Of a stretch of 23,768 nt of DNA, positions 27 through 20,699 are shown one piece after another. A program made the position numbers and the translations under genes. Each line of letters opens with the position of its first letter. Position 1 is the first letter of the stretch. The DNA lies in IMG/VR virus record IMGVR_UViG_3300048592_000878, positions 1-23,768 of that record, one strand, 5' to 3'. The DNA is from a virus. Below the pieces are notes generated by a model. It made no database searches, was not told the origin of the DNA, and saw only the letters and a list, made by a program, of their open reading frames with translations.

Positions 27-124
27 GGAAGCGTGCCGGAATTGGCAGACGGACGGCCGTGGTAGGCCGATGGGGCATCTTCGGTACCTGCGCCTTGATG
101 TGGGTTCGAATCCCACCGCTTCCT
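27..124 (+). tRNA. Class II (Leu-like) tRNA or tRNA-like gene, anticodon uncertain
   Basis: A cloverleaf can be drawn. The acceptor stem GGAAGCG (27-33) pairs fully with CGCTTCC (117-123). The D stem CCG (36-38) pairs with CGG (50-52) around a Leu-type loop containing AATTGGCAGA. The T arm is GTGGG-TTCGAAT-CCCAC (100-116). Between them is a 5-bp anticodon stem, CGGCC (54-58) with GGCCG (65-69), and a long variable region of about 30 bases (70-99) with an imperfect stem (72-77 with 89-94). Several things are odd. The anticodon loop is only 6 bases (GTGGTA) if all five pairs form. The triplet after its U is GGU, which would read Thr, although the body looks like tRNA-Leu. The discriminator base is U, and the 3' end reads CCCA rather than an encoded CCA. 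It may be a degenerate or unusual phage tRNA. Confidence 0.55.
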
Positions 125-151
125 CCCACAACCTTTTCCCAAGGAGTCACC

Positions 152-496
152 ATGACCTCACGTCTCGCAGCCTTTCGCGCCGTGCTTCTCGTAGCGGCTT
201 TGCTCCTCTCCGCTTGTGGTCCCGGGGAATTTCCCCTTACGCCGGGTCCGGGTCATACGCTGAGAGTCGACGCCATCGAGCCCGTGTGCACCTCTGGTGA
301 CGACACTACGAGCACCCGCACGGAGTTCTACCTGCTCTATACCGACCAAGGGACGTTCGCCACATCGATCCAAGGGTCCAGGCGGGTCAAGGAGGGCGAG
401 GTCACAAGCTTCTACGCCGAGTCTCATTGCGCTTACGCCAACTTCGAGGGCTGGCAGGTGGTTACACCGGAGCAGTCCAGCAAAGCGGCCAACTGA
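152..496 (+). CDS. Small predicted lipoprotein
   Basis: The 114-residue product starts at the ATG preceded by AAGGAG with good spacing. Residues 1-21 form a signal peptide: basic residues, then a hydrophobic core, ending in the lipobox L-S-A-C with the lipidated cysteine at position 22. Glycine at +2 would not retain the protein in the inner membrane of a Gram-negative host. The mature part is about 93 residues with two further cysteines (46 and 93) that could form a disulfide. It has no recognisable domain. The stop codon overlaps the ku start (ATGA), so the two genes are translationally coupled. Phage lipoproteins often act in superinfection exclusion or lysogenic conversion. That role is inferred from size and location class only. 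Confidence 0.8.
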   Translation: MTSRLAAFRAVLLVAALLLSACGPGEFPLTPGPGHTLRVDAIEPVCTSGDDTTSTRTEFYLLYTDQGTFATSIQGSRRVKEGEVTSFYAESHCAYANFEGWQVVTPEQSSKAAN

Positions 497-1212
497 TGTT
501 GGCGACCGTCTGGAAGGGCACCCTCGAGTTTGGGCTGGTCTCGGTACCCGTCCGAATGGCGGTGGCGGTCAAAGAAAAGAAGGTTGATGTCAACCTGGTC
601 AATCCGAAGACCGGCTCGGGCGTCTCTCAGCAGGTGGTCGACCAGGTCACCGGCCAGAAGCTGAACCGCGCGGAGCTGTCCCGGGCCGTCCACGTCGACG
701 CTCGCACGGCCGTGGTGACGAAGCAGGAGCTGGACGCGCTTGACGCCGCTCCCTCTACCGAGATCGACCTGGTCTCGTTCGTGAAGTTGGGCGAGGTCGA
801 TCCGATCCATTTCTCGGGATCCTTCTTCCTATTGCCGGCGGCCGACGTCGACGATTCTTCCTATCACCTGGTCGCCCAGGCCCTGCGTGGTTTCGGTGCC
901 GTTGGCACTATGGTTCGGCTGGGCCGCCTTCGCAACATTTTGCTGCGCGTTGCGCGCGGCGGTGTGCTGGTACTGCACACCCTGCACAACGCCGGCGAGG
1001 TCCGCCAGGCGGAAGAACTCGAGCCCGCGGCGATTGATCCCCGCGATCTACGGCTGGCCCGGCGCTACGTGCGAGCTCACACCGCGCCGTGGACACCTGG
1101 CGACCTGGTCGACCACCATCGCCAGAGGCTGCTCGAGCTGGTCGCGGAAAAGCGGCGAGAGGCCGCCGGCGACCTGACCTCTGAGCTCAAGTCTTCGGTG
1201 GCCAAGTCGTGA
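496..1212 (+). CDS. ku: Phage-encoded Ku protein (NHEJ DNA-end-binding)
   Basis: The 238-residue protein matches the bacterial Ku core. It opens with MLATVWKGTLEFGLVSVPVRM, matching the family's 'iWkG.isFGLVnvPV' start. Then come a Q-V-V-D-Q-V-T-G segment in place of the usual Cys-x-x-Cys-like region, VVTKQELDAL, the acidic IDLVSFV..GEVDPIHFSGSFFLLP strand-turn-strand, the V-G-T-M-V-R-L-G-R motif, VLVLHTLHNAGEVR, and a C-terminal helical end. Known Ku homodimers thread onto double-strand ends and recruit LigD for end joining. At 238 residues this is a minimal core without the basic C-terminal tail of many bacterial Ku proteins. The start is set by the ATGA overlap with the lipoprotein gene; a longer in-frame reading from 427 would overlap that gene by 70 bases. 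No ligD is visible here, so a ligase would have to come from the host or from elsewhere in the phage. Phage Ku is known from mycobacteriophages Omega and Corndog. Confidence 0.88.
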   Translation: MLATVWKGTLEFGLVSVPVRMAVAVKEKKVDVNLVNPKTGSGVSQQVVDQVTGQKLNRAELSRAVHVDARTAVVTKQELDALDAAPSTEIDLVSFVKLGEVDPIHFSGSFFLLPAADVDDSSYHLVAQALRGFGAVGTMVRLGRLRNILLRVARGGVLVLHTLHNAGEVRQAEELEPAAIDPRDLRLARRYVRAHTAPWTPGDLVDHHRQRLLELVAEKRREAAGDLTSELKSSVAKS

Positions 1213-1661
1213 CCGGTCTGCTCGAGCGCGGCAACCTGTTCCTCGCCGTTGGAACCGGCGGCAGGCCCACAAGGCTCTCCTGGTTCAACGGGGAGTACTT
1301 TGATTTGGTAGACTCTTGGCGAACACCCGGTATCCAAGAGATTGCCGAACAGGTCGCCGACTATGCCAGCCGCTGGCCGTCCCAGCCGAGGGTGCTCGTG
1401 GTGCGAAGCTCCGGGATTGGCGTGGGTATCCTGGACATCTTGCAGAAGTCTCCGATCATTCACGAGGGCACTGGCGCGACCGTCCAGGTCGTTTCTGACC
1501 GTATCTCGGCCCGCCAGGCTTCACATCCTCTCGACGGATTCCACAAGCTGCGCGAGGCCTGCGGCGTCACCCGGGCCGACCTGGTCAAGCATGGCGTCAA
1601 GGTCGACGCCAACGGTAACATTCAGTCTGGTCTACCCGTGAGGACGCATGAGGACGATTGA
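1209..1661 (+). CDS. Putative RNase H-fold protein resembling a terminase nuclease domain without its acidic residues
   Basis: The 150-residue product starts at GTG, whose GTGA overlaps the ku stop. I do not recognise a named family. By eye the order of elements resembles the nuclease half of terminase large subunits, including the TerL in this window: a first strand LFLAVGTGG followed by a hairpin strand (residues 9-35), a helix, then VLVVRSSGIGVGILDIL (62-78), matching TerL IIRIDATGLGVGVPDQL, then VQVVSD. In TerL the two aligned positions are the catalytic Asp333 and Asp384; here they are Gly15 and Arg66. If the likeness is real, the domain cannot be an ordinary metal nuclease and may bind DNA or protein. 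It is coupled to ku, which suggests a shared role at DNA ends. Confidence 0.7.
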   Translation: MTGLLERGNLFLAVGTGGRPTRLSWFNGEYFDLVDSWRTPGIQEIAEQVADYASRWPSQPRVLVVRSSGIGVGILDILQKSPIIHEGTGATVQVVSDRISARQASHPLDGFHKLREACGVTRADLVKHGVKVDANGNIQSGLPVRTHEDD

Positions 1662-1992
1662 TGCCGTCAGGCACGCCGAGCTGGTGCTCTTGAACGAGAG
1701 CTGGATGCTGGGGAGCGACCCTGTGTTGCCCGACGTCGTCGAAGCCCTACGCCTCCCCTCTGTCCGGCGTGGCGAGATGGGCTACGGCCGTGTGATTTAC
1801 GGAACGCCAGACGGTCGGACCGTCCATGGGATGCTGAACCTACCGCAGCGCCAGCTGCCCGGCGCCCCGCGCAACGTGGAGTCGCGAGGTTCCATCGCGC
1901 TCCATCGAGCCAGGTTCGACTCTCCCGAAGAGGCCAGGGAGGCGGCCGTTTCTCTCCTCCAGCTGGCCGACGAATGGCAGGACGAGCTTTGA
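1648..1992 (+). CDS. Hypothetical protein, 114 residues
   Basis: The ATG lies inside the end of the preceding gene (14-base overlap), and the reading frame is fully open to a TGA. I recognise no family. The protein has an acidic, leucine-rich N-terminal half, a central stretch with MGYGRVIYGTPDGR that suggests a beta hairpin, and a C-terminal amphipathic helix, EEAREAAVSLLQLADEWQ. There is no signal peptide or membrane segment. It is a soluble protein of unknown role in the operon between ku and the terminase genes. Confidence 0.6.
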   Translation: MRTIDAVRHAELVLLNESWMLGSDPVLPDVVEALRLPSVRRGEMGYGRVIYGTPDGRTVHGMLNLPQRQLPGAPRNVESRGSIALHRARFDSPEEAREAAVSLLQLADEWQDEL

Positions 1993-2255
1993 CCTGGTGG
2001 TTAGGAATGAGCCCGTTGAAGTTTGCCAGGGACGTCCTCGGTATCGGTACTGACCTGGGCGAAGGCCCGGATACGAGCACGCCGCCGCCCCCGTCAGAGG
2101 GCTCCTACGTTTTCACGGATGGCTGCTATTCGATGAACCGAGGCCCAACCCGGCCCCAGCGGCGGCAGTCACTTTACCAAGCGAGAGTTGCTCGGGTCTT
2201 CGGGCACAGAAGACCCGGGCCGACGGACCAGCAGCTTGCACCCACCCACAAGTAG
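1989..2255 (+). CDS. Hypothetical small protein, start and coding status uncertain
   Basis: The frame is open over 88 codons. I place the start at TTG 1989 because its TTGA overlaps the previous stop, the coupling style used throughout this operon; ATG 2007 and ATG 1974 are alternatives. The first 40 residues (MSPLKFARDVLGIGTDL followed by a proline-rich run) look protein-like. The second half is Arg/Pro/Gln-rich and runs through a strong hairpin, so part or all of it may be non-coding. No family is recognised. If the gene is false, this 273-base stretch before the methyltransferase remnant contains only the hairpin. Confidence 0.35.
   Translation: MTWWLGMSPLKFARDVLGIGTDLGEGPDTSTPPPPSEGSYVFTDGCYSMNRGPTRPQRRQSLYQARVARVFGHRRPGPTDQQLAPTHK
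2190..2220 (+). terminator. Strong GC hairpin, possible transcription stop or processing site
   Basis: CGGGTCTTC (2193-2201) pairs perfectly with GAAGACCCG (2209-2217) around a 7-base loop. The stem extends outward to 12 pairs with one G-U (2190-2192 with 2218-2220). No T-tract follows, so it is not a classical intrinsic terminator. It lies between the ku cluster and the methyltransferase remnant and could separate the two transcripts or protect the upstream 3' end. Confidence 0.45.
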
Positions 2256-2265
2256 ATTGGACTAG

Positions 2266-2617
2266 ATGTTTTCGTTTTCTGACTGCATCGCCTGGCAAGG
2301 CGATTGCCTTGACCTTTTACCACGGATTCCCACGGGATCGGTGGATATGATACTCTGCGACCTTCCTTACGGCACGACGTCCCACGAGTGGGACAAGCGA
2401 ATCAATCTGGTGGCCCTTTGGGCCGAATACAACCGGGTCTTGAAGGTGAACGGCGCCTGCCTCCTGTTCTCACAGTGCCCGTTCGACAAGATCCTTGGCG
2501 CGTCCAATTTGAAGGCCCTTCGGTACGAATATCGAGAGAGACCCGGCTTACTTCGCGATAGCTCAACAGAGACTCAGCGCGGCTCAGGCGGCGCCCGAAG
2601 AGAGGAACGAAGAATGA
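2266..2617 (+). pseudogene. DNA adenine methyltransferase remnant with internal deletion and frame change
   Basis: Residues 1-88 of the first frame are the N-terminal part of a beta-class (motif IV first) DNA methyltransferase: WQGDCLDLLPRIPTGSVDMI, the catalytic motif DLPYG at 32-36, then HEWDK, LWAEYNRVLKVNGACLLF and a final LRYE. Normally this continues to a target-recognition region and the AdoMet-binding F-x-G-x-G motif. Instead, from about 2525 the next frame encodes NIERDPAYFAIAQQRLSAAQ, the typical methyltransferase C-terminus, and ends at TGA 2615-2617. That stop overlaps the next start by ATGA. The middle (probably more than 100 residues, including motif I) is gone, so it cannot methylate DNA. 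Simple read-through would give a 192-residue fusion with the next gene. Confidence 0.75.
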
Positions 2618-2844
2618 GAGAGATCAAAGTTTTGAAGGATGGCCTGCTGATTGGTGGCCACCGGTACAACGCCGGCGATGTGGTTCTGCCGGAGCATCGG
2701 ACCCACGACGTGGTCCAGGCGGCCGACGGCCGCGGTGGCCAGCTGGCGGGGTGGGTCCTGCGCGACAAGCTGCCCGCCCCTGCCGCCGAGCCGGCACCCG
2801 AAAGTGGTGATGGCGAGGTCGAGGCGAGCGCAGAGCCCGCCTGA
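2614..2844 (+). CDS. Small phage protein of the 'GG-x-RY-x-AGDVV' type
   Basis: The 76-residue product starts at ATG 2614, set by AGAGGAA upstream and by the ATGA overlap with the old methyltransferase stop. Residues 1-45 (KVLKDGLLIGGHRYNAGDVV then LPEH) resemble short beta-rich proteins common among phage head-gene clusters. Their exact function is not established to my knowledge. The C-terminal 30 residues are Ala/Pro/Glu-rich and probably disordered. It could be a minor head or fibre-associated protein. A longer open frame begins at 2266, but its upstream part is the methyltransferase remnant. Confidence 0.65.
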   Translation: MREIKVLKDGLLIGGHRYNAGDVVLPEHRTHDVVQAADGRGGQLAGWVLRDKLPAPAAEPAPESGDGEVEASAEPA

Positions 2845-2853
2845 TCCCGCAGA

Positions 2854-2911
2854 GGGGGTAAGGGGGGCGGGGGTCCCTCGGGTTCAGATCGACCCCCCGG
2901 CCCCGCCGGGG
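2854..2911 (+). other. G-quadruplex motif plus GC hairpin before terS, candidate cos/pac region
   Basis: The 129-bp gap between the small gene and terS holds four G-runs (2854-2858, 2862-2867, 2869-2873, 2880-2882) with loops of 3, 1 and 6 bases, which fits the canonical quadruplex pattern. Next comes the perfect hairpin CCCCGGC (2895-2901), a 3-base loop, then GCCGGGG (2905-2911). DNA just upstream of the small terminase gene is a common place for the packaging recognition or cleavage site. Assignment as cos or pac is inference; no overhang can be read from the sequence. Confidence 0.4.
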
Positions 2912-2955
2912 AAGCGCCAGCGGTTCCCAGGCGCGCGCTTTCGCCGCCACCAACA

Positions 2956-2964
2956 AAAAAGGAG
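2956..2964 (+). promoter_or_regulatory. Shine-Dalgarno that fixes the TTG start of terS
   Basis: AAAAAGGAG lies 9 bases before TTG 2974, and no ATG or GTG is positioned to use it. This supports the rare TTG start for the small terminase subunit. Confidence 0.6.
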
Positions 2965-2973
2965 CTCGTCCAT

Positions 2974-3555
2974 TTGTCCATTGCCAAGTGCCAAATCAGG
3001 TGCGACGTGAGTCCGGAGCAGAAAGAATGGCTGGACAGCCAGGGTAAAAACCTGTCCCAGACCATGCGAAACGTCATCTCCCGGGCGATGCCTGGAGGAG
3101 ATCTCGACATTCGCGAGGTGGACCTTAGCGTTCCGCCCCAGATCAGATTCCTGGAGGCGGTCGAGGTTCACTACCGTTTCCGCAAGTCGTGCCAGGTGGC
3201 CCAGGTCAGCCCGGCCGAGATCACCGCGGCGCTGGCTGCGGACGAGGTCTTTCGCGAGGCCTACAAGTCGGCCCAGGCCACGTTCACCGAGGAGATGGAG
3301 TTCATTGTCCTGGACTGCGCCAAGGGCAACCGGAAGATTGATAAGCCGGCCATGACCGGGCTGATCGCCTGGCTCAACAACAATCACCCGGCGTGGGGCA
3401 GGGTGAAGGCCGAGATGATCCAGAGGATCTTCGGTCCGCTGTTTCGGGATATCTTCGCGGCAGCCGCGGAGTTGCTTGATTCCAAGACCTACAAGAAGTT
3501 TGTCGAAAAGCTGGAGTCGATACGCGAGGTTCGGCTCTTGCCCTTCTCCGACTAG
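2974..3555 (+). CDS. terS: Terminase small subunit
   Basis: The 193-residue protein sits directly before TerL. Residues 1-42 look like a ribbon-helix-helix DNA-binding unit: a strand KCQIRCDV, helix SPEQKEWLDSQ, then helix NLSQTMRNVISRAM. Residues 60-95 form the helix-turn-helix found in many small terminase subunits (YRFRKSCQVAQVSPAEITAAL then FREAYKSA). The rest is helical (FTEEMEFIVLDCAKG, MTGLIAWLNNNHPAWG), as in the oligomerisation region. Small subunits form rings that bind cos or pac DNA and pass it to TerL. The start is TTG with a strong Shine-Dalgarno. The extra N-terminal DNA-binding unit is unusual. The assignment rests on position, size and HTH, as this family diverges quickly. 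Confidence 0.75.
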   Translation: MSIAKCQIRCDVSPEQKEWLDSQGKNLSQTMRNVISRAMPGGDLDIREVDLSVPPQIRFLEAVEVHYRFRKSCQVAQVSPAEITAALAADEVFREAYKSAQATFTEEMEFIVLDCAKGNRKIDKPAMTGLIAWLNNNHPAWGRVKAEMIQRIFGPLFRDIFAAAAELLDSKTYKKFVEKLESIREVRLLPFSD

Positions 3556-3567
3556 GTTTCCATCGCC

Positions 3568-5109
3568 GTGGCCCTGCCCGCTCTGTCGCGTGCCCATCTC
3601 GACAGGTGGGCTCGGCCTGACCCTCTGCTGGTTGTCAATCCGGTAGAGACGAAGATCCGGAGAAACGTGCGCAGCGCGGTCTGCCACACCGCCCTGAAGC
3701 TGGCCGACGAAGAGATCGAACCGTGGTATGAGTACGCCGACGATCCTGTCGGCTTCGTGCGTGACATCCTCGGTGTCGAGCTCTGGGCGAAGCAGCTCGA
3801 GATCATGCTCTCGGTTCATGGGAACCCTCGGACGGCGGTGCCGGCCTGCTACGCCAGCGGCAAGACATACCTCGCCGCTTGCATCGTTCTCTGGTGGCTG
3901 TACACGAGGACGCCGGCGATCGCTGTTACGACCGCCCCGACGGCCCGTCAAGTAAAGAAGAATCTCTGGCGCAACGTTCGCAACCTTCATCGCAGGGCAC
4001 GCGTCCGGCTTGGCGGCTCCCTTCTTCAGACGGAATTGAAGCTGGCCGACGACTGGCAAGGCTTCGGATTCTCGGGCAGTACCGGCGAGTCCGTACAGGG
4101 GATCCATGAAAAGGCCAACGTTCTCTTCATTGAGGATGAAGCTGCCGGCATGTCCCAGGACTTGCTGGACAACTTCGAGGGCATCACTGCGGGCTCGACC
4201 AAGAACCGCCATCTGAAGATCGGCAACCCGATCATCAACGAGGGCGCGTTCTACGAGGCCTGCGCGGACACCAAGAACTGGAACGTCATCCCCATCTCGG
4301 CATTCGATGTCCCGAACGTCGCGCAGAAACAGATTGTCGTGGAGGGCCTGGTCGACCATGACTGGGTTGAACACAAACGCCAGCGGTTCGGGGAGAATTC
4401 GCCGTTCTGGTACACGAAGGTCTTGGGCCTGTTCTGGACTCAGGCCAGCGAGCTCGTCATCCCTGTCGAATGGGCGCAGGCCGCGCTCGAGCGCTGGGAC
4501 TCGCCAGAGCTGCTTGAGTGGGAGAAGGAGAACCTCCACCTCTTCCACATCGAGATCGCCGCCGACATCGGCCGGACGATCGACGAAACCGTAATCGTCA
4601 AGCGCCACGGCCGGCGAATTTGGGTGCTGGAAACCTGCTCCCTCAAGGATTTGACGCTGGTCTGTGACCGCATCGAGCACTGGGCTCTGAAGGAGCGCGC
4701 CGACATCATTCGGATCGACGCGACCGGCCTCGGTGTCGGCGTTCCCGACCAGCTGATACGCCGCATCCTCGACGGGGACAGCATGCTTGACGAGGACATC
4801 GTCATTGACGCCGTGGTTCTCGGCCGGCGCCCGCTGGACCGCGACGCCTACGAGTACTCGCTCGACGAGATCCAGTGGGAGATGCGCAAGGCGTTCGACC
4901 CGAGCAACCCCGAGGCGATGGCCATCAACGATCCCGAGCTCGCGAAAGAGCTCTCGTATCGCTCCTGGGAGCTCTCAAGGAAAGGCAAGATTAAAGTGGA
5001 CACCAAGAAGGACTTGCGGCGCAAGAAGAAGCCGAGCCCGAATAAGGCGGATGGTGCCATGTTGTTCTGGAACCAGCGCACGGGCTTCACGGAGCTTCTG
5101 GCGGCATGA
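3568..5109 (+). CDS. terL: Terminase large subunit (packaging ATPase and nuclease)
   Basis: The 513-residue protein shows all core motifs. The ATPase has a variant Walker A, ACYASGKT (93-100), Walker B VLFIEDEAA (185-193) with the catalytic Glu after Asp, and the coupling motif KIGNP (217-221). The C-terminal RNase H-like nuclease has IEIAADIG (Asp333), IIRIDATGLGVG (Asp384) and the late acidic residue in NKADGAM (Asp495). The enzyme docks on the portal, drives DNA into the prohead with ATP and cuts the concatemer. It starts at GTG 3568, 12 bases after the terS stop, and its stop overlaps the portal start by ATGA. Its full length and intact motifs indicate a working enzyme. Confidence 0.95.
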   Translation: MALPALSRAHLDRWARPDPLLVVNPVETKIRRNVRSAVCHTALKLADEEIEPWYEYADDPVGFVRDILGVELWAKQLEIMLSVHGNPRTAVPACYASGKTYLAACIVLWWLYTRTPAIAVTTAPTARQVKKNLWRNVRNLHRRARVRLGGSLLQTELKLADDWQGFGFSGSTGESVQGIHEKANVLFIEDEAAGMSQDLLDNFEGITAGSTKNRHLKIGNPIINEGAFYEACADTKNWNVIPISAFDVPNVAQKQIVVEGLVDHDWVEHKRQRFGENSPFWYTKVLGLFWTQASELVIPVEWAQAALERWDSPELLEWEKENLHLFHIEIAADIGRTIDETVIVKRHGRRIWVLETCSLKDLTLVCDRIEHWALKERADIIRIDATGLGVGVPDQLIRRILDGDSMLDEDIVIDAVVLGRRPLDRDAYEYSLDEIQWEMRKAFDPSNPEAMAINDPELAKELSYRSWELSRKGKIKVDTKKDLRRKKKPSPNKADGAMLFWNQRTGFTELLAA

Positions 5110-6473
5110 GCTTTTTCGACAGGATCGCGGCCGCCGGACGGGCGCTGGTGGGCCGGGCCGACTATTCGGACTATCACAAGCAGCTGACCGATGTGGGATG
5201 GTTCGGGACAGGCGGGCTCTCGCTGGCCGCCGGCGCTTGCCGCAACACCCGGGCCTGGCTCGAGACCCTGAACAAACACCCACGCCTTGCCTCGGCCGCC
5301 AACAGGATCGCGACCGACGGCGGTAAGACACGCTGGTTTTTGCTCGAGGACGATCGGAAGACCGGGAAGCCGCGCGAGGTGACCGAGCATCCCTTCCTCA
5401 AGTTCATGGCGGCGCCTTGGAGGACGGCCGCGGGCGGCAGCTGGTGCACGGTAATCTACCTGATCATCGTCTACCTGCTGATCGATGGGAACGCCTTCCT
5501 CCGGTTGAAGTGGAAGAACCCCGACAAGAAGGGACCGCCCGACGAGATTTGGCCAATCTCTCCGCACCTGGTGGCCAGCGTCCCGCGCAAAGGTCAGCCG
5601 TACTATCTGCTGGCTGCCGGCGTGGAAGAAGCTTGCGACCGGATTCCACCCGGCGAGATGCTATGGCTACGCCGCCCGAACCCCCTGGACCCCTTCGGCC
5701 GTGGTTGGGGCGTGGCTCAAACGCTGGATGACGAGGTCTCTCAGGATGAATGGGCGGCCAAGTACAACAACTCCTGGTTCAGGAACGGGGCACGGCCCGA
5801 CCTGCTCATCTCTATCGGAGAGGCCAACCCGCTCGAACGCAAGCGCATCGAGGAGAGCTGGAAGAGCAAATACAGAGGCATCGCCAACGCCTTCAAGACG
5901 TTCTTCTTGACGTCGGACGCCAAAGTCCACAACCTGGCCACGACTCACAAAGACATGCAGTGGACCGAAGGTCGCAAGCTGCTGCGCGACATCATCTTCC
6001 AAACGTTCGGCCTGCCTCCGGAAGTCATGGGTGTGGTCGAGAATTCCAATCGCGCCACGGCCGAGGCGGCTCTTTACCTGTACAGCCTACAGTGCATCCT
6101 CCCGATGGTCAGCAACATTTGCGACGAGCTCAACCGGCTTCTGCTGCCCCTGTTTTTCGTCAACGGACGCTCTGTCTATCTGGGCTTCGAGTCGCCTGTT
6201 CGCGAGACTGAGGAGTTCCGACTCAACAAGGCTACCGAGCTGTTCAAATGCGGCGCCATCACCCGAAATCAGTGTCTCGAGACCGTGGGCTATGACCCGG
6301 CTCCGGGAGCCCGTGGCGAGGAGTATCTGGTACCGGTGAACATGCAGGCCGTCGGTCCGAACGACAGCAGCAGCAGCGAGAGCGCCGAGAAGCCGGCCAA
6401 AAGGAACGTCGTCAAGATTTTCGCGCCCCGGGGCGGCGTCATCAGCGAGATCGAAATGGAGAGAGCAGCGTGA
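5106..6473 (+). CDS. Portal protein, HK97 type
   Basis: The 455-residue protein has the size and order of HK97-family portals. The N-terminal part contains WLETLNKHPRLASAANRIA and the segment leading to HPFLKFM. The wing region contains YLLIDGNAFLRLKW and a short Pro-rich turn. The clip/stem region contains EEVSQDEWAAKYNNSWFRNG (as VSQDEWAAKYNNSWFRNG), then LRDIIFQTFGLPPEVMGVVE and NSNRATAEAALYLY, a hallmark of this family, followed by helices lining the channel. A serine-rich, flexible C-terminus follows (about residues 418-435). Twelve copies form the ring through which DNA enters and leaves the head. It is coupled to terL upstream and to the protease downstream by 4-base overlaps. Confidence 0.93.
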   Translation: MSFFDRIAAAGRALVGRADYSDYHKQLTDVGWFGTGGLSLAAGACRNTRAWLETLNKHPRLASAANRIATDGGKTRWFLLEDDRKTGKPREVTEHPFLKFMAAPWRTAAGGSWCTVIYLIIVYLLIDGNAFLRLKWKNPDKKGPPDEIWPISPHLVASVPRKGQPYYLLAAGVEEACDRIPPGEMLWLRRPNPLDPFGRGWGVAQTLDDEVSQDEWAAKYNNSWFRNGARPDLLISIGEANPLERKRIEESWKSKYRGIANAFKTFFLTSDAKVHNLATTHKDMQWTEGRKLLRDIIFQTFGLPPEVMGVVENSNRATAEAALYLYSLQCILPMVSNICDELNRLLLPLFFVNGRSVYLGFESPVRETEEFRLNKATELFKCGAITRNQCLETVGYDPAPGARGEEYLVPVNMQAVGPNDSSSSESAEKPAKRNVVKIFAPRGGVISEIEMERAA

Positions 6474-7342
6474 GCATTACCATCGGCGGAAGTATTCTGG
6501 GCGGCGAGAGAGCCCTCGACGAGGCCGAGCAGATCGTTCGGGACTGCCAGGCGAAGTTTGAGGTCCGGGCGGTCAACGAAGAGGCCGGTGAGGTCGAGGC
6601 GGTCATCTCAACGAGAGACGTCGACCGATATCGTAGCATCATCCTGCCGCAGGGATTTGACCGCCTGCTGAACCGGTTCTTGGCGAATCCTATGTTCCTC
6701 TGGCAGCACAACCGGCACGCGCCCCTTGGGTCAGTAGTGAGGATCTGGCGCGACAAGGATCAGGTCTACGCGATCCTTCGCTTCGATTTGAAGAACAAGT
6801 TCGCGGCCGAGGTCTTCCGTCTCTATAAAGACGGGATTATGCGCGCCTTCTCGGTCAGCGGGGCCGCCTCACAGATCTTCTACGCCTGGATGAGCCCGAA
6901 GGAGCGCGAGGCTCTCCGCGAGATCGATCCCGAGGCCTACGACGCGCTGGACGCCGAAGAGGCCTACTACGTCATCTCTGAGCTCGAGCTCTACGAGGTG
7001 AGCGCCGTCACCGTCCCGGGCAACCATCGCGCGCTGCGCCGCGCTCTCGAGAACGGGGACATCGACCAAGAGTTCGCCGAGTTCTTCGGCATCAAACGGG
7101 GCCTCGACGCTCCAATGGAAACAGACCAACAGCGAAAGGAGCCCGATATGGATAGAATGCCCAAGGAACTGGTCGAGCGCATTGACGCGCTCACCCGCGC
7201 CGCCAGCGAGCTGATCGAGGAGCGAAAGGCCGCCAAGGCCGCCCCGACCGGCCTGACGGACGAATTACGCGCGGAGGTCCGGCAGGTTGTCATCGACACC
7301 TTCGCCGAGATCTACGCCGGCGGCGACGAAGACAACGAGTAG
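6470..7342 (+). CDS. Prohead protease, with C-terminal scaffold-like extension
   Basis: The 290-residue protein starts at GTG 6470 (GTGA overlap with the portal stop). Residues 28-190 match the HK97 gp4 / peptidase U35 fold: F-E-V-R-A-V-N then a strand, D-V-D-R-Y-R-S-I, FLWQHNRHAPLGSVV with the likely catalytic His80, IMRAFSVSG with the likely nucleophile Ser128, and ELELYEVSAVTVPGNHRAL at the end of the domain. It would cleave the capsid delta domain and scaffold during maturation. Residues 215-290 are an extra helical acidic tail that contains its own ribosome-binding site and start (see the nested feature). The stop is followed by a terminator. Confidence 0.9.
   Translation: MSITIGGSILGGERALDEAEQIVRDCQAKFEVRAVNEEAGEVEAVISTRDVDRYRSIILPQGFDRLLNRFLANPMFLWQHNRHAPLGSVVRIWRDKDQVYAILRFDLKNKFAAEVFRLYKDGIMRAFSVSGAASQIFYAWMSPKEREALREIDPEAYDALDAEEAYYVISELELYEVSAVTVPGNHRALRRALENGDIDQEFAEFFGIKRGLDAPMETDQQRKEPDMDRMPKELVERIDALTRAASELIEERKAAKAAPTGLTDELRAEVRQVVIDTFAEIYAGGDEDNE
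7136..7140 (+). promoter_or_regulatory. Internal Shine-Dalgarno for a nested scaffold start
   Basis: AAGGA lies 7 bases before ATG 7148, inside and in frame with the protease gene. This is one of the best-spaced ribosome-binding sites in the region, although it is not needed for the protease itself. Confidence 0.5.
7148..7342 (+). CDS. Predicted nested scaffold protein (in-frame internal start)
   Basis: A 64-residue product would start at the internal ATG with the sequence MDRMPKELVERIDAL and share the protease stop. It is predicted to be almost fully helical and heptad-like (VERIDALTRAASELIEER), with an acidic end (GGDEDNE). Phage lambda makes its scaffold Nu3 from an internal start in the protease gene C, and the arrangement here is the same. 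No separate scaffold gene exists between protease and capsid. The capsid protein also has its own N-terminal delta-like region, so the nested product may be an accessory scaffold or only the protease's targeting tail. Confidence 0.45.
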   Translation: MDRMPKELVERIDALTRAASELIEERKAAKAAPTGLTDELRAEVRQVVIDTFAEIYAGGDEDNE

Positions 7343-7387
7343 GCGCAAGCGCGCTCGCAATTCCCCAAATCACCAAAAAAAACTTCA

Positions 7388-7410
7388 GGCTCGCCCCGCG
7401 GGCCTTTTTT
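7388..7410 (+). terminator. Intrinsic terminator before the major capsid gene
   Basis: GGCTCGC (7388-7394) pairs with GCGGGCC (7398-7404) over 7 pairs (one U-G) around CCC, followed by six T (7405-7410). It lies between the protease stop and the capsid ribosome-binding site AAAGGAG (7417-7423). Confidence 0.75.
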
Positions 7411-7434
7411 CATGCGAAAGGAGCCCAAATAACT

Positions 7435-8622
7435 ATGGGAGCGACCCTACAACAGGTTCAGAGAATGGTTATCGACCGTGTCAAGCACGATCGGGATAAG
7501 GCCAAGGACCAACCCAACCCCAACGCCGAGCGCTTCGCCCAGATCGAGCAAGCGGCCGTCGAATGCGTACGCAGCGGAAACCGCCCGGGCGAACGTCTCG
7601 CGCTGATGACCGTGGCCCTGGCTGCCGCCGATGGTAACGCCGAGCGCGCCAACAAGATCTTGCGCGATCGCTACGGCCGCCCCGACATGGTTCCCGAGAT
7701 CGAGCGCGCTATGAGCCAACAGAACCCTACCGAAGGCGGCTATTTGGTCCCCGAGAAGTGGACCGACGAAGTCATTCCTGCCATCAAGGATCAGGCTTTG
7801 TTGGTGAACCTGGGCGTCCGCGTTCTCGAGAATCCGACCGGAGATCTCTCCATGGCTCGCGTTTCGGCAAGCGCAGCCGCCTACTGGAAGGCTCCTGAAG
7901 GGTCGAAGATCAAGGCGACCAAGGCGAAGTTCGGACGATTGCGCTTGCGCGACAAGTCCTTCGCCGCAATCGTGCCCGTCAGCAACAAGCTGATGGCCAA
8001 CGCCGGCGTAAGCTTTGCGAACTTCCTGGAAGGCGACCTGCTCTCCAGCGTGGCCGTCCTGGTCGATAAGGGCGGCTGGTTCGGCAAAGGCGGCGAAGAC
8101 GAACCTTTGGGCCTCTTTGACCCGAAACTTTGCAACGGTACCTCAGGGGTTAACAAGGTCAGCCTGTCGACCTTCGACGAGGACGCGCTGGTAGACCTGA
8201 TGCTCGCCCACATGGAGGCCAACGGCACCATGGTGAATCTGCAGTGGGCATTCGGTCCCGCCGTGTGGGCGAAGCTCATGAAGATGAAGTACGGCACCTC
8301 GGGTGAGGGGGGTCACATCTTCCGAGAGGAGATGACCAAAGGGACCTTGATGGGCGTGCCTTTCAAGTACAGCAACATCATCAAGCGGAAGGACCCCAGT
8401 ACTGGCTACTTGGCGCTCGCCGACTGGAACGAGTTTATCTTCGCGCCCTCGCGTCCCATCCAGTTGGCCAAGACCACTGAAGGTGGCTACTACGACGACG
8501 AGGGCAACCCAGTCTTGGTTTTCGGCACCGATGAGACCGCCATCCGCATCACCGGCGGGGCCGACATGGGTCCGCGCCAGATGCACAGCTTCACTCTGGC
8601 CGACGACGTGGACCTGACCTAA
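7435..8622 (+). CDS. Major capsid protein, HK97 fold
   Basis: The 395-residue protein has the HK97-type plan. Residues 1 to about 98 are a helical, charged delta-like region (QIEQAAVECVRSG, AERANKILRDRYG) normally removed by the prohead protease. The mature N-arm then starts near TEGGYLVPEKWTDEVI, with the GGYLVP landmark at 101-106. Later landmarks are AAYWKAPEGSKI, FAAIVPVSNKLM, DLLSSVAVLVDKGGWFGKGG, a PLGLF segment, and KGTLMGVPFKYSNII before the C-terminal A-domain strands. It assembles around the portal as pentamers and hexamers. Cleavage near residues 92-100 is inferred. The start is the ATG 11 bases after AAAGGAG. The terminator directly upstream suggests it heads its own transcript. 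Confidence 0.93.
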   Translation: MGATLQQVQRMVIDRVKHDRDKAKDQPNPNAERFAQIEQAAVECVRSGNRPGERLALMTVALAAADGNAERANKILRDRYGRPDMVPEIERAMSQQNPTEGGYLVPEKWTDEVIPAIKDQALLVNLGVRVLENPTGDLSMARVSASAAAYWKAPEGSKIKATKAKFGRLRLRDKSFAAIVPVSNKLMANAGVSFANFLEGDLLSSVAVLVDKGGWFGKGGEDEPLGLFDPKLCNGTSGVNKVSLSTFDEDALVDLMLAHMEANGTMVNLQWAFGPAVWAKLMKMKYGTSGEGGHIFREEMTKGTLMGVPFKYSNIIKRKDPSTGYLALADWNEFIFAPSRPIQLAKTTEGGYYDDEGNPVLVFGTDETAIRITGGADMGPRQMHSFTLADDVDLT

Positions 8623-8631
8623 ACCTCGCTG

Positions 8632-8671
8632 GGGTCCGGAAGCGCAGCATCGAGGCTACGCTTTCGGACCC
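8632..8671 (+). terminator. Long hairpin just after the capsid gene
   Basis: GGGTCCG-G-AAGCG (8632-8644) pairs with CGCTT-T-CGGACCC (8659-8671), 13 pairs with one G-U and a 14-base loop. No T-run follows. It may stabilise the abundant capsid mRNA 3' end or attenuate read-through into the next genes. Confidence 0.5.
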
Positions 8672-8702
8672 GGGCCGACCCCCAAAACGAAAGGACAACA
8701 TC

Positions 8703-9146
8703 ATGGGCGTCACCTACGTTAGCAAAACCGCTATCGAATCCAACTTCCTGCCGACCGGCCTCGCTGGCGACGCGATCGGCGCGACCGCGAACGGGACCAG
8801 CCACGATCGGAACACGATTGACAAACTTCCGGCCGGGCCGTTCGACGAGGCCTTCTTGCTGCTCCACCTGGAGGCCATCAACGGCGGCCCTTCGGTCGCC
8901 TCGGTGACCTTCCGAATCGAGCACTCGGATAACAACTCCGACTGGACCGCTGTCACCGACTTGGCCACGGTTGAGGCCGCGACCATCACCCTGACAGCCG
9001 TGGGCTTCAAAACCCTGGCTGTCCGACCTAACGGCCTGAAGCGGTACAGGCGCGCGGTCATCTCGGCGATCACCCTGACCGGGGGCTCGAGCCCCTCGCT
9101 GAAGCTGCGGGCCGTCTGGGTTCTCACCGGCGGCCGCCAGGTCTAA
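8703..9146 (+). CDS. Beta-rich structural protein, probable head decoration protein
   Basis: The 147-residue protein is encoded immediately after the capsid gene, with AAAGGA 8 bases before the ATG. It is predicted to be nearly all beta strand: AFLLLHLEAING, SVTFRIEHSDNNSDWTAV, ITLTAVGFKTLAV, RYRRAVISAITLTGG and a final SLKLRAVWVLTGG. Small beta-sandwich proteins with this RYRRAVI...TGG...SPS pattern occur among phage structural genes. The position between the capsid and the first connector suggests a decoration or cement protein. I cannot name a family with certainty. Confidence 0.7.
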   Translation: MGVTYVSKTAIESNFLPTGLAGDAIGATANGTSHDRNTIDKLPAGPFDEAFLLLHLEAINGGPSVASVTFRIEHSDNNSDWTAVTDLATVEAATITLTAVGFKTLAVRPNGLKRYRRAVISAITLTGGSSPSLKLRAVWVLTGGRQV

Positions 9147-9149
9147 TCC

Positions 9150-9782
9150 GTGGACGCCATCAACCCCGCGTGCAACGCGCTGACCACGGTGGCTCGGCTC
9201 CGAGCCGCGGGGTTCGGTGGCCAGGCCAGCAACAGCGCTCTCCAGATCGCGATCAACGCGATTTCGGCTATGGTCGAGCGAGAGTGCGACAGGGAGTTTC
9301 GCGTCAGCTGCTTCGGCGGCGACGAACACCCGCCCGAGCTGGTGCAAGGGAGCGGCAGCCGCATCCTGGTGCTTTCCACTTACCCGATCCTGGAGGTCTC
9401 CAAGGTCGAGATTGACGGCGCCGAAGTCACCGACTGGCAGCTGATCCCGGGACTGGCAAAGTGGGGCGCGCTCGACCGCCGGTCTAAATGGCCACGCCGG
9501 GAAGGCCACTGGGGCGACCTGGTGTGTGACCCAGACGGGGAGGCCGACTGGAACGTCGCGGTCAGCTACAAAGCCGGCTTTCGAGAGGTTCCGGCCGATC
9601 TCGAGCTCGCGGTGATGACCGAGGTCGACCTGGTCGCCGGCGGCTCCGGCGGGAAGGCGACACGGCGCATCCAGAGCGAGCGGACGCCCGGCGGCTGGTC
9701 AATCGCCTACGGCAAGGGCGAGCACCAGTGCTCTATGAGCTCCGTGCGCATCTTCGAGTCCTATCGGAGGAAAGACCTGTGA
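9150..9782 (+). CDS. Head-tail connector (gp6/gp15-like adaptor)
   Basis: The 210-residue protein starts at GTG 9150, three bases after the preceding stop. The N-terminal helices (ARLRAAGFGGQASNSALQIA, then AISAMVERECDREF) are followed by STYPILEVSKVEIDGAEV, a tryptophan-rich loop, NVAVSYKAGFREVPADLELA and C-terminal helices. This follows the pattern of the HK97 gp6 / SPP1 gp15 connectors, in which helices pack against the portal and a 'hxYPIxxVxxVxxDG' strand pair follows. It forms the first ring under the portal. The end overlaps the next gene by GTGA. Confidence 0.85.
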   Translation: MDAINPACNALTTVARLRAAGFGGQASNSALQIAINAISAMVERECDREFRVSCFGGDEHPPELVQGSGSRILVLSTYPILEVSKVEIDGAEVTDWQLIPGLAKWGALDRRSKWPRREGHWGDLVCDPDGEADWNVAVSYKAGFREVPADLELAVMTEVDLVAGGSGGKATRRIQSERTPGGWSIAYGKGEHQCSMSSVRIFESYRRKDL

Positions 9783-10105
9783 ATCGAGACCGCTTGGTGC
9801 ACCGTGCGACGATCTCGCGACCGGTGGTCACCCGCGAGGAGGGGAAGACCGTCGCGAGCGCGCCGGTCCCCGTCGTCGCCGGCGTCCACGTCTGGGCTGA
9901 AGGGATTGGGCCGGCCCAGCGTGCGCTGCTGGTCGGCCGGCGCGACCACGCTCGTTACACCCTCAGCTGGATGGACGATGAGTTTCGGTCCGAGGACGTG
10001 GTCACGTTGACCGAGCCGGCGCTCGGGACCTACGTCCTTCGAGGGATTCAGCACGATATTCAAGGCGAGTATTGGTTCGGGACTTTGGAGGAGCGGGCGT
10101 CATGA
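9779..10105 (+). CDS. Head-tail adaptor / stopper protein
   Basis: The 108-residue protein starts at GTG 9779, set by the GTGA overlap and CGGAGGAAAG upstream. It reads NRDRLVHRATISRPVV near the start, then a loop, VVAGVHVWAEGIG, and short strands (RYTLSWMDDEFRSEDVV, TYVLRGIQHD, EYWFGTLEER). This is the pattern of the SPP1 gp16-type head-tail joining family: a small beta barrel that plugs the portal channel after packaging. It lies second in the neck gene series, as expected. Confidence 0.8.
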   Translation: MNRDRLVHRATISRPVVTREEGKTVASAPVPVVAGVHVWAEGIGPAQRALLVGRRDHARYTLSWMDDEFRSEDVVTLTEPALGTYVLRGIQHDIQGEYWFGTLEERAS

Positions 10106-10734
10106 TGGAACTCGACGTCGACACAGCCACGGCCGAGCGACTTCTGGGCCGCAAGCTGACCGCGCTCGACCGATTCCTGGGCTTGGCCACTGACAAGGCA
10201 ATCAAGCTAGTGGAGACCAGCCTGCGTGCTCGCGTCAAACCCATCCGAAGGCCGCAGAACATCCAGGATGCTCCCCGGCGCACGGTACCGAGGGTGAACC
10301 CCGTCCACGTGAAGCGCGAAGGGTCCGATGGCTTGGTCTATCTCCGACCTCACGTGACCAGCGCTCGTTCGCCTGTAGTGCAAGCCCTGTTTCAGCAACT
10401 TGGCCTGGGCGCGCAGCTGGTGCGCAGCGGGCTTTGGATGGACCCGAACAGGATCGTCCGCGACCCCATCACTGGGAATTTCGCGGGAAGCGTCAGGAAT
10501 AACGGATACACGTCCAGGAGCGGACTCCGATTCTATCGCTTCTCTAGGACGCCCGGGCTCGAAGAGTGGGCCAGGAACAAGGACAAGGGTACGCAGGCCT
10601 TGCGCCACACAGTCCGGCTGACCTCGCCCGACGTCCGGATCAAGCTGATCCTGGCCCCAACCGTGAAGTTTTGCCGACAGCGCGTCTTCGCGCTCTTTGA
10701 AGCTGCTACCAAGGAGGCGATGGACGCCCAATGA
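10102..10734 (+). CDS. Neck / tail-component protein, HK97 gp10-like
   Basis: The 210-residue protein starts at ATG 10102 (ATGA overlap; a second ATG follows at once). It has an N-terminal helix, ERLLGRKLTALDRFLGLATD, and KLVETSLRARVKPI, resembling HK97 gp10-like proteins ('a...ie..a...vPvdTG.L'). A basic central part with loops follows (KREGSDGLVYLRPHVTS), then C-terminal helices (VFALFEAATKEAMDAQ). It sits between the stopper and the tail terminator, the usual place for this family. It is longer than the typical 120-150 residues, with a middle insertion around residues 95-160. Confidence 0.65.
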   Translation: MMELDVDTATAERLLGRKLTALDRFLGLATDKAIKLVETSLRARVKPIRRPQNIQDAPRRTVPRVNPVHVKREGSDGLVYLRPHVTSARSPVVQALFQQLGLGAQLVRSGLWMDPNRIVRDPITGNFAGSVRNNGYTSRSGLRFYRFSRTPGLEEWARNKDKGTQALRHTVRLTSPDVRIKLILAPTVKFCRQRVFALFEAATKEAMDAQ

Positions 10735-11252
10735 TCGAGATCGACTTGGACGCGGTAGCCGAGCACGCCCGCGACCTGATCTGGGACCAGCTGCGCGAGG
10801 AGCTGGAACTTGTCACCTGCCAACAGGGCTGTCCGGAGCAAGTCCGTTCGCCGCAAGACCTCGCCGACGCCGTCCCGGCCGTGCTGATCGATCCGCCCAA
10901 GTGGAGCGGCGGGCGGCCCGAGGCCGAAGGCTTGCCGGCGCTGGAAGGCACGGTGACCATCGGGATCACCTTCATCCGCCCGATCGCGCCTCCGCCGGAG
11001 TCGGAAGACGACCCGGTCGAAGAGCACCCGAGAGAGCTGGTGAAGCAGCTTCAGAAAATTGCCGCTCTCTTCTCTCGCCCTGACTTCAAACTGGAAGGTT
11101 GGGATGACGGGGCAGGCCTGGATATCCAAGAGATTTACCCGGCCGACCTCGGCCATGACCACGATCTTACCTACGAGGACAGCACCGTGAGGCTGGCTCT
11201 CGGCAGCATCACCCTTCAGGCGAGAGCTATCGTCTACGACCCGGCCGGCTAG
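10731..11252 (+). CDS. Tail terminator / tail completion protein
   Basis: The 173-residue protein starts at ATG 10731 (ATGA overlap, GGAG upstream). It has an N-terminal helix, DAVAEHARDLIWDQLREELE, then strands around PAVLIDPPKWSGG and GTVTIGITFIRPI, an acidic loop, and a C-terminal beta part (YEDSTVRLALGSITLQARAI). Size, mixed alpha-beta character and position, last before the tube protein, fit the tail terminator ring that caps the finished tail. The assignment comes mostly from gene order. Confidence 0.65.
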   Translation: MIEIDLDAVAEHARDLIWDQLREELELVTCQQGCPEQVRSPQDLADAVPAVLIDPPKWSGGRPEAEGLPALEGTVTIGITFIRPIAPPPESEDDPVEEHPRELVKQLQKIAALFSRPDFKLEGWDDGAGLDIQEIYPADLGHDHDLTYEDSTVRLALGSITLQARAIVYDPAG

Positions 11253-17872: not shown

Positions 17873-18111
17873 AGAGCATCTGGAACAAGAGACCTACCCC
17901 TTCGCCGATCAGCGTTGGCCAGTTCTCCGGCAATTCCGAAGACGGCTACCAAATGTTTCGGAATGGCGGGTACTACGCCAGCCAGAACAGCCTGGTGGCA
18001 CCCGCCTTGGGAGTGCCGGCGCTTTCACTGGAGTTCGGCTTCGGCCAAAGCCTTACGCTCGATTTCGGCGGCTTCTACGCAGCCGCGCCTCCGCCGCCGG
18101 AGGAACCATGA
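17869..18111 (+). CDS. Small tail-region protein, 80 residues
   Basis: It starts at ATG 17869 (ATGA overlap) and its stop overlaps the next ATG (ATGA). It has no transmembrane segment or signal peptide. The N-terminus MKSIWNKRPTPSP is proline-rich, the middle contains EDGYQMFRNGGYYASQN, and the end is Phe/Gly-rich (LEFGFGQSLTLDFGGFY) followed by a run of Pro and Glu. It resembles no family I know. The first residues look like those of the next protein (MRSLWRPGP). A minor tip component or short adaptor is possible. Confidence 0.55.
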   Translation: MKSIWNKRPTPSPISVGQFSGNSEDGYQMFRNGGYYASQNSLVAPALGVPALSLEFGFGQSLTLDFGGFYAAAPPPPEEP

Positions 18112-20699
18112 GGAGCCTCTGGCGTCCCGGGCCCGAGCCGCAGAAACGGGGGATGGCTACCTATTTGGGGGAGAACGAGGCCGGTCACCCATGCTGGGAG
18201 ATCGAAGGACTATCCTACACCGGCAGCGTGAGCACCGTAGGCGGCGGCACACCGGTGATCGGCCGGGTCTACCCTGCATGGTGCAACCAGCCAGACAGCC
18301 GCTCACAGTGGGTAGTGCTAGTCCGGCCCGGGACGTCGAAGATCTTGCCAAAGGAGTTCGCCGAGCTCGCGCTGTGGACGCACTTCCTCGCTACGGCCGG
18401 ACGCTCCGGACGAAGTGGCGCTTGGACGCCAGTTGACCTCAGGCGGTTGAAGTCCATCGAAGCCGCGTTCGAAGACCCAGACGCCTTGGTGAGGGTTTGG
18501 GAGAACACCCTCGTCTTCGACGTGTTTGGCGCGGGTGGATTCATCGCCTTGGCCACGTTTGGGGAGCAGTACTTCAGTTTCGAGTATCCGAGCTATTTCG
18601 CCGGCGATGGTCCGCTGGTCGACCTGGTGCTGGACGCCAGCGAGGACGGGAACCTGTTCATCCTTGGAGCCACCTCGGTCGAGAAGGTCGCTCGTGCGAC
18701 GGTCACTCAGGAGTGGACCGAGAGCCTCGGCTCTGGGCCCAAGCCTGGCGGCACAGCGCCCTACAAGCCGCTGGCGCTCACGCTTCACCTGGCAGCGTCG
18801 GCCACCCTTGAGGGCGAAGAGGAGCCCACGGGCCCTCTGGTGGTCTGCCTTTCCAGCAAGCCGCACGACACTCTGGGCCGACCATCGCTCTACCTGCATC
18901 GCCTGGCACGTGCGACGGGGGACCCGGTTGGAGACCCGATCCGGTTGACCCAGCCCGCCGACGCGCCGTTCCACGCGGGCGAGATCTTCCCGGTGGTCTC
19001 GACCTGGTCAACGGCGGAGAACACAACCTTCAAGCCGTGCTACTGGGACCCGACGCTCCTGGGCACGGACCCGGTCGAAGTGGTCGGGCCGAACACCCGC
19101 TACCGCTTCTGGCGCAAGCCGGCCTGGCAGCAGTTCAGCACAACCTGCTTTATGCCGTGGGCGGCGATCGGGGACCTGATTTCCAACCAGTATTCCCCGC
19201 CTGTCTTCCCCGCGTCGCCGGCGGGCACGGTTGACCTGGCGTCGGCGGTCTATCTGGGAACACAGGACGCCGAACCCGGTGGCGACCCACCAGAGGTGCT
19301 GGTCTATCCGGCAAACGTTGTGATGACGATCTCCGAGGGAGACATCGTTGTCCCGCGCTACGCGAAGCCGGTGTCCTGCCTGAGTGGCTACAAGGCCAGC
19401 ACCGGGGCACGGGTGCTCGAGATCAAGGGATGGACGGCAGAGCCCGTGGACGGCCTGTATGTCCGCGACTTCTTTACCCCTCTGGTGATTCGGCGGGGCG
19501 TTCTGTCGGTCATCACCCGGCGCTGCAAGTTTCTCGACGTCGACGTCGACTTCAAAAAGTTCGAGTTCGAGCTCGAGGACGTCCTCCACTTCCCCGAAGA
19601 CCCGCTTGGCCCTTACGACACCTACCGCCACACAGTCGGGGTTATGGACGGCGAAGGCTTCGGGTTCGAGGACGTGACCGCGCGGCGGGCCCGGCCATGC
19701 ATCTCGTCGGAGGATTATCTCGAGACCTTCTCGCTCTATACGGGAGATCGCCTCTCCAGCACTATGCTGCAACCCATCAAGATCGTCTCCATGGCGCATC
19801 GACCCGGGGAGTTCGCCGGCGAGGACCCGGGTACGATCTTGATCTGGGACGGGGAGGAAGCGGTCCCCCACCCTTTCGAGAGCCGCGGCACCATTCCCGA
19901 TTCGACGGACCTCTGGTATCGGGCCCCTTCTCTCCGGCCCCAGGCAAAATTCACCTCGGCCGGTGTGGACGGTGATGGGGTGGGCGCCGACCTGATGACA
20001 AACCTGCTGGATCAGAATGCCCGTGATTGGTTCGTCAGCGGCGGATTCTACTACGTGGATGACGCCGATGAACCTGTCACGGCATCCTACGAAGAAAAGT
20101 TCGTCGCAGTCGAGATGAATACGACCGCTGACGCGCCGCTGCTCTTCGACAAGACGAACCCGGTGCTCTCCAGCGGCGGCAATCTGCTGATCTTCCCTCC
20201 GCGCACCTACAGCTCGGTGATGTACGACGGCAACGATATGGTCCTTGAGGGCGCCAAGCGCAGCTTCGAGTCCTCTGGAACGATCGACGAGGACGCCGGC
20301 GTTTCGTTTGCCGGTGGCAGCGTTTCCAACGGTTGGCTCCACGACGTGGCCATGGGCTCCGACTGGAACAAGCTCAAGCGCTGGTTCTACGCCTTCCACC
20401 GCGGCGAAGGCGGCCTGGCCTGGCGATACGAGTTCACCTACGACACCAGCAAGGCGCTGACTCTGGCCCGCCCTTGTTGTGGCGACGGCAAGGTCTACCT
20501 CTACTACCACCTGGGCACTGGCACCGGCTCGCGTCGCCTCCGCATCCTCAGCGAGGCAGACGGGACCCAGCTGGACGATTACGCGCTGACTCTGGAGAGC
20601 GGCCTGGTCCCAGGAACGCCCCGCTCCCTTATCCTCAGCGGCCAAGTCTCGGCCGTCGTGACCGCCGACAGCATTTTCTCAGTACTACCGCCCGCCTAG
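18108..20699 (+). CDS. Large tail protein, 863 residues, probable tip or minor tail component
   Basis: It starts at ATG 18108 with GGAGGAA upstream and an ATGA overlap. It is acidic to neutral, beta-rich and without signal or membrane segments. The N-terminal part has EAGHPCWEIEGLSYTGSVST. Several repeated-looking D-G and P-G turns follow, a Cys pair near TLARPCCGDGKVYLYYHLG lies close to the end, and a final region GSRRLRILSEADGTQLDDYA resembles a strand-rich propeller or lectin-like module. No catalytic motif is seen. Its size and place after the hub-like gene fit a central tip or side-fibre protein. The specific function is unknown. Confidence 0.68.
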   Translation: MRSLWRPGPEPQKRGMATYLGENEAGHPCWEIEGLSYTGSVSTVGGGTPVIGRVYPAWCNQPDSRSQWVVLVRPGTSKILPKEFAELALWTHFLATAGRSGRSGAWTPVDLRRLKSIEAAFEDPDALVRVWENTLVFDVFGAGGFIALATFGEQYFSFEYPSYFAGDGPLVDLVLDASEDGNLFILGATSVEKVARATVTQEWTESLGSGPKPGGTAPYKPLALTLHLAASATLEGEEEPTGPLVVCLSSKPHDTLGRPSLYLHRLARATGDPVGDPIRLTQPADAPFHAGEIFPVVSTWSTAENTTFKPCYWDPTLLGTDPVEVVGPNTRYRFWRKPAWQQFSTTCFMPWAAIGDLISNQYSPPVFPASPAGTVDLASAVYLGTQDAEPGGDPPEVLVYPANVVMTISEGDIVVPRYAKPVSCLSGYKASTGARVLEIKGWTAEPVDGLYVRDFFTPLVIRRGVLSVITRRCKFLDVDVDFKKFEFELEDVLHFPEDPLGPYDTYRHTVGVMDGEGFGFEDVTARRARPCISSEDYLETFSLYTGDRLSSTMLQPIKIVSMAHRPGEFAGEDPGTILIWDGEEAVPHPFESRGTIPDSTDLWYRAPSLRPQAKFTSAGVDGDGVGADLMTNLLDQNARDWFVSGGFYYVDDADEPVTASYEEKFVAVEMNTTADAPLLFDKTNPVLSSGGNLLIFPPRTYSSVMYDGNDMVLEGAKRSFESSGTIDEDAGVSFAGGSVSNGWLHDVAMGSDWNKLKRWFYAFHRGEGGLAWRYEFTYDTSKALTLARPCCGDGKVYLYYHLGTGTGSRRLRILSEADGTQLDDYALTLESGLVPGTPRSLILSGQVSAVVTADSIFSVLPPA

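Follow-up and report, generated by a model that had tools for sequence, protein, structure and literature searches.

We found that a fragment of an uncultured phage carries a genuine prokaryotic-type Ku gene shortly ahead of its terminase genes, and that the same layout is kept in a second, strongly diverged phage. The window analysed here is a 23,768-nucleotide (23.8-kb) linear fragment, and whatever is reported absent from it is absent from the fragment, not from the whole phage genome; the second phage is represented by contig G001 (IMGVR_UViG_3300048592_001414, 36.7 kb). In our preferred reading, to which we give about an even chance, the phage Ku works with host LigD supplied in trans and circularises the linear genome after injection by joining its two ends, as has been proposed for mycobacteriophages Omega and Corndog. 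The genes described below for positions 27–8622 of the window lie on the plus strand.

The Ku gene occupies positions 496..1212 and encodes 238 amino acids. A sequence-only reading of this DNA had called the product a Ku core protein, and both the Pfam profile search and the structure prediction that it proposed bore this out. A six-frame Pfam search of the window matched the ORF to PF02735 (E = 5.3e-23, 75.8 bits), a Pfam scan of the protein scored 74.8 bits, the cut-off being 25, and a PHROG scan returned phrog_4873, ‘Ku-like DNA end binding’ (125 bits, E = 6e-36). Solved bacterial Ku chains matched it by sequence comparison with E values of 5e-22 to 1e-17. The AlphaFold2 model, built as a monomer, was confident (mean pLDDT 91.3, pTM 0.77), and its best fold match in the PDB was the Bacillus subtilis Ku–DNA complex 9vnq (E = 8e-19, TM 0.82/0.87), with the Mycobacterium tuberculosis Ku–DNA complex 9i91 also among the top matches. 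Taken over 9vnq, 9i91 and 8v53 (TM 0.77–0.87, E from 1e-15 to 1e-18), the model has the solved bacterial Ku fold; the top viral fold match was the Ku of cluster O phage Dylan (TM 0.80/0.68). A Gam profile was not matched, and Pfam and PHROG scans at E ≤ 0.001 gave Ku families only. All features of a PF02735 Ku that could be examined here were present.

The gene overlaps the ORF on either side. Its start shares one base with the end of a small lipoprotein-like ORF (152..496, ATG at 152, Shine–Dalgarno AAGGAG, lipobox LLSAC, no Pfam match), the junction reading TGATG at 494–498, in agreement with the coupling of these two genes that had been read from the sequence. Its stop overlaps, in GTGA, an ORF at 1209..1661 that has no Pfam or PHROG match; this overlaps an ORF at 1648..1992, which in turn overlaps one at 1974..2255, and Pfam and PHROG scans assigned no function to either of the latter two. 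A fourth ORF (2266..2844) appears to be a methyltransferase remnant, matching phrog_67 over residues 10–88 only and also phrog_12862: its N-terminal ~85 residues are those of a DNA methyltransferase and the remainder is unrelated, as if a deletion had truncated the gene. After a gap of 129 bp come the terminase small subunit gene terS (2974..3555; phrog_4044, E = 4.5e-5; aligned with the G001 TerS at E = 2e-7), the large subunit gene terL (3568..5109; phrog_2, E = 1e-23, with tblastn matches to annotated TerL genes), the portal protein (5106..6473; PF04860, E = 1e-44), the prohead protease (6470..7342; PF04586, E = 6e-7) and the major capsid protein (7435..8622; PF05065, E = 2e-30). Ku thus lies 1.76 kb from terS and 2.36 kb from terL; it had been described as next to the packaging genes, and although it is unusually near them, it is not adjacent, with four ORFs (1209–2844) intervening before terS. 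At the other side of the lipoprotein-like ORF, Rfam model RF00005 matched a tRNA gene with a long variable arm at 27..124 (38.2 bits against a cut-off of 29). ARAGORN called no tRNA there, and the anticodon loop is apparently 6 nt long (GTGGTA between CGGCC and GGCCG), so the gene may be degenerate or unusual; it probably lies outside the mechanism considered here.

The C-terminus of the protein bears on what this Ku might do. A motif, D-[LIM]-x-x-x-[LI]-x-x-S, is near-universal among the aligned bacterial and phage Kus, and the window Ku stops right behind it: GDLTSELKSSVAKS. Its residues GDLTSELKSS align with DLMxALxxS of bacteria and phages, and the protein is a natural ‘Ku-min’, made of the beta-barrel core plus the minimal C-terminus, with the basic extended tail absent. 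The conserved minimal motif has been reported to contact LigD, and M. tuberculosis Ku cut back to this minimal C-terminus stimulated ligation of blunt and 4-nt sticky ends equally to the wild type (PMC9638933, PMC13201618), while the extended tail limits threading of B. subtilis Ku along DNA (PMC13201618). By analogy, GDLTSELKSS may recruit LigD to the window Ku. No ATP-dependent ligase (PF01068) was found in the window, itself a fragment, or in G001; any end joining would thus need the LigD of the host, as in Omega and Corndog.

That lack of a phage ligase also suits a different role, in which Ku would coat linear phage DNA at its ends, either on entry or during replication, and block RecBCD/AddAB-type nucleases, in the manner of Mu Gam and without LigD. 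DNA-end binding is common to Ku and Mu Gam, Gam shields linear phage DNA from nucleases (PMC1378119), and the window Ku is free of the tail that limits threading in B. subtilis Ku (PMC13201618), which fits a coating function. The protein is, however, a bacterial Ku by both sequence and fold, the Pfam scan matched Ku only, and the LigD-linked motif has been retained at its very end though everything beyond is absent. It is mainly because this motif has been kept at the C-terminus that we prefer end joining to pure end protection, which we consider unlikely.

The closest Ku that we found, at 41% identity, is that of G001; it was reached by alignment queries only, and scans of viral contigs with the single protein returned no close relatives. 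In the Ku tree, the two proteins are sisters (support 99/97) on long branches. G001 and the window have in common the gene order Ku, terS, terL, portal, protease, capsid, and in G001 the distance from Ku to terL is 1.9 kb. The five packaging and head proteins that come after Ku in this order are only 23–29% identical between the two phages, and none of the genes between Ku and terS is common to both. Unlike the window Ku, the G001 Ku retains a basic tail behind the motif. Among 29 other Ku-bearing viral contigs surveyed, G001 was the only one with Ku less than 3 kb from a detected TerL; in five more the distance was ~5.5–9 kb, and in the rest it was larger or TerL was undetected. The closeness of Ku to terS and terL remarked on in the sequence-only reading is indeed unusual, and it is kept in a diverged phage. 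The record ‘Bacteriophage sp.’ MT838252 was set aside as a source of phage Ku: its Ku is of bacterial type with a Lys/Ala-rich tail, and the record is without annotation. As a separate observation, the best-scoring protein common to the window and G001, at 728 bits and far above the packaging and head genes, is an 863-amino-acid product at 18108–20699 that has no Pfam match and is probably a tail protein exchanged more recently.

Ku was present in 0 of 23 other contigs with a related TerL, several of which are fragments, so it is optional in this terminase lineage, yet stably placed where present. Such patchy presence would be expected of accessory cargo, that is, a repair gene in a variable spot near the genome end that would aid the lysogen or the replicating phage and have no link to packaging. 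Around Ku, the window has genes of a typically accessory kind (a tRNA, a lipoprotein and a methyltransferase remnant), bacterial NHEJ genes are known to move horizontally (PMC11936186), and G001 is probably temperate because its contig contains an integrase and HTH regulators. What makes this reading improbable to us, to a similar degree as end protection, is that Ku has kept its position in two phages between whose packaging and head genes 71–77% of aligned positions differ, and that it has diverged less than those genes, the genes intervening between Ku and terS being all different.

As for the virion DNA ends, the sequence-only reading had proposed that they may be unable simply to anneal and be sealed, and had counted pac-type ends as evidence against its view. 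In the gap just before terS lies a G-run box, GGGGGTAAGGGGGGCGGGGG (2854..2873, plus strand), which resembles one seen close to the right cohesive end in actinophages. It is the strongest G-run cluster of the window, and the strongest cluster of G001 (contig positions 12969–12986) likewise sits in the gap before terS. Equally strong clusters arose somewhere in 96 of 200 dinucleotide shuffles of the window and in 51 of 200 of G001; because such clusters are this common, only the position of the box counts. A run of at least five Gs started 42–52 nt before the right cohesive end in seven of eight actinophage records cut at their cohesive ends (phiC31, Galaxy, Bennie, Circum, Zeta1847, CapnMurica and MiaZeal), a small panel from which the rule was drawn after the window had been seen. 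MiaZeal is itself a Ku-bearing cluster J phage. By comparison, no such run occurred within 300 nt upstream of terS in any of six phages (0/6), three permuted, one with a direct repeat, and phiCD27 and phiEf11, which were taken without a check of end type. Microdon was dropped from the panel, its record apparently not being cut at the cohesive ends.

In both phages, the position of the box suggests a cos site in the Ku–terS interval. Applying the 42–52 nt distance from G-run start to cut in the seven cos phages, we place the predicted cohesive-end cut of the window at 2901..2920; its counterpart in G001 would fall around contig positions 13010–13030. Two further lines were not used. The sequence GGGAAGC occurs in both phages at a near-equal distance from the G box and was considered as a common cut site, but 38 of 1,000 shuffles matched as well; and in a collection-wide scan for the G-run pattern, many of the matches listed lay at contig ends. 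Separately from the question of Ku, a G-run 42–52 nt ahead of the right cohesive end might help to predict cos sites in fragment genomes generally; one search of the literature turned up no account of such a run.

The terminase itself did not place the ends. A tree of 29 TerLs gave no supported placement for the window TerL, and its neighbourhood spans circularly permuted, direct-terminal-repeat, pac and cos phages: Laroye is circularly permuted and Amigo has a 1,584-bp repeat (PMC5513430), the pac-type P1 PacB is among the relatives, and so are Streptomyces cluster BI phages, which have 9-nt 3′ cohesive ends (PMC9670994, PMC6256688). Microbacterium phage Fork, another TerL relative, was ruled out as a cos phage, its record (MH371108) bearing a 3,099-bp direct terminal repeat. 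Because the relatives are mixed and the placement of the window is unsupported, TerL phylogeny is uninformative on end type; it is the position of the G-run box that favours cohesive ends over pac-type redundancy. Ordinary cohesive ends of 9–13 nt are closed by most phages without Ku, a point that counts against the end-joining reading here.

Ku near terS and terL and a predicted cos in both phages, a stretch of coding strand from the end of Ku to terL in which no terminator-like site was found, so that co-expression with terminase is possible, and the idea of packaged Ku raised for Omega (PMC3706429) would all fit a Ku that holds or protects the terminase-cut concatemer end, or one that travels in the virion and is injected along with the genome, but mass spectrometry found no Ku in Omega virions (PMC3706429) and nearness alone does not show function, which leaves such a packaging-step role very improbable. 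End joining by Ku and LigD would proceed as follows. Cohesive ends are probably left by terminase cutting at a cos site shortly ahead of terS. When the linear phage DNA enters the cell, Ku would load onto both of its ends, bridge them and shield them from nucleases; its minimal C-terminal motif would recruit host LigD, which would seal the ends and yield a circular genome after infection. In this scheme we infer the cos-type ends, from the G-run box, as well as the use of host LigD and the purpose of circularisation. If the predicted cos is correct, no more than ~2 kb would separate the Ku gene from the right end of the virion DNA.

Phage Ku was already known from the cluster J and O mycobacteriophages. 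NHEJ circularisation via Ku and host LigD has been proposed for Omega and Corndog (PMC3706429, PMC4351075); cluster J phages have 4-base ends (PMC3706429), as do Corndog and cluster O, for which circularisation by NHEJ was likewise proposed (PMC4351075). The Omega/Corndog type of circularisation goes with a linear genome whose 3′ cohesive ends are short (4 nt); the corresponding observation in the window is the cos-like G-run box before terS. In several respects cluster J resembles the window: its Ku has the core and minimal C-terminal motif (30% identity), a G-run box lies near the right cohesive end, and no phage ligase was found in MiaZeal. The Omega-type Ku differs from the window Ku in having an extra Lsr2-related C-terminal domain (PMC3706429). 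The gene is also placed differently, since in cluster J it lies on the opposite strand at ~10 kb from the right end, is separated from terL by ~96 kb of the linear genome, and adjoins FtsK-like genes rather than terS. Proximity of Ku to an FtsK-like DNA translocase gene was also seen in the Omega-like phages Pound and Thibault and in phage WXIN. Cluster O (Corndog, Dylan) has the Ku fold in common with the window. Bacterial Ku (B. subtilis, M. tuberculosis) matches the window Ku in fold (TM 0.82–0.87), core sequence and minimal C-terminal region; the window Ku, unlike these, is without the extended basic C-terminus and sits in a phage structural-gene locus. A Ku is also listed for Streptomyces phage BillNye (PMC11936186). 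Compared with the known phage Kus, the window is distinguished by the lineage of its Ku, by the absence of a tail and by the position of the gene near terS and terL.

Ligase genes close to Ku were seen elsewhere. In IMGVR_UViG_3300025928_000022, a phage contig, a WGR-domain ATP-dependent DNA ligase gene (8258–9307) lies ~0.6 kb upstream of Ku (9929–10768) on the same strand, possibly a phage-encoded two-gene end-joining pair, and in contig G002 a ligase domain lies ~3 kb from Ku.

More tentatively, and with less confidence than we have in circularisation itself, Ku, cos, terS and terL may form a conserved module for making and joining ends outside the mycobacteriophages, with Ku 1–2 kb from the right end and NHEJ needed at every infection, in the window by way of a tail-less Ku. 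Phage NHEJ has so far rested on a few mycobacteriophages in which Ku is remote from the packaging genes and 4-base ends were the basis for inferring what it does. A diverged Ku beside a predicted cos and terS/terL in two phages outside that group would provide an independent system in which end joining, end protection and repair can be told apart, and a naturally tail-less Ku would be material for finding out which part of the protein LigD recruitment depends on.
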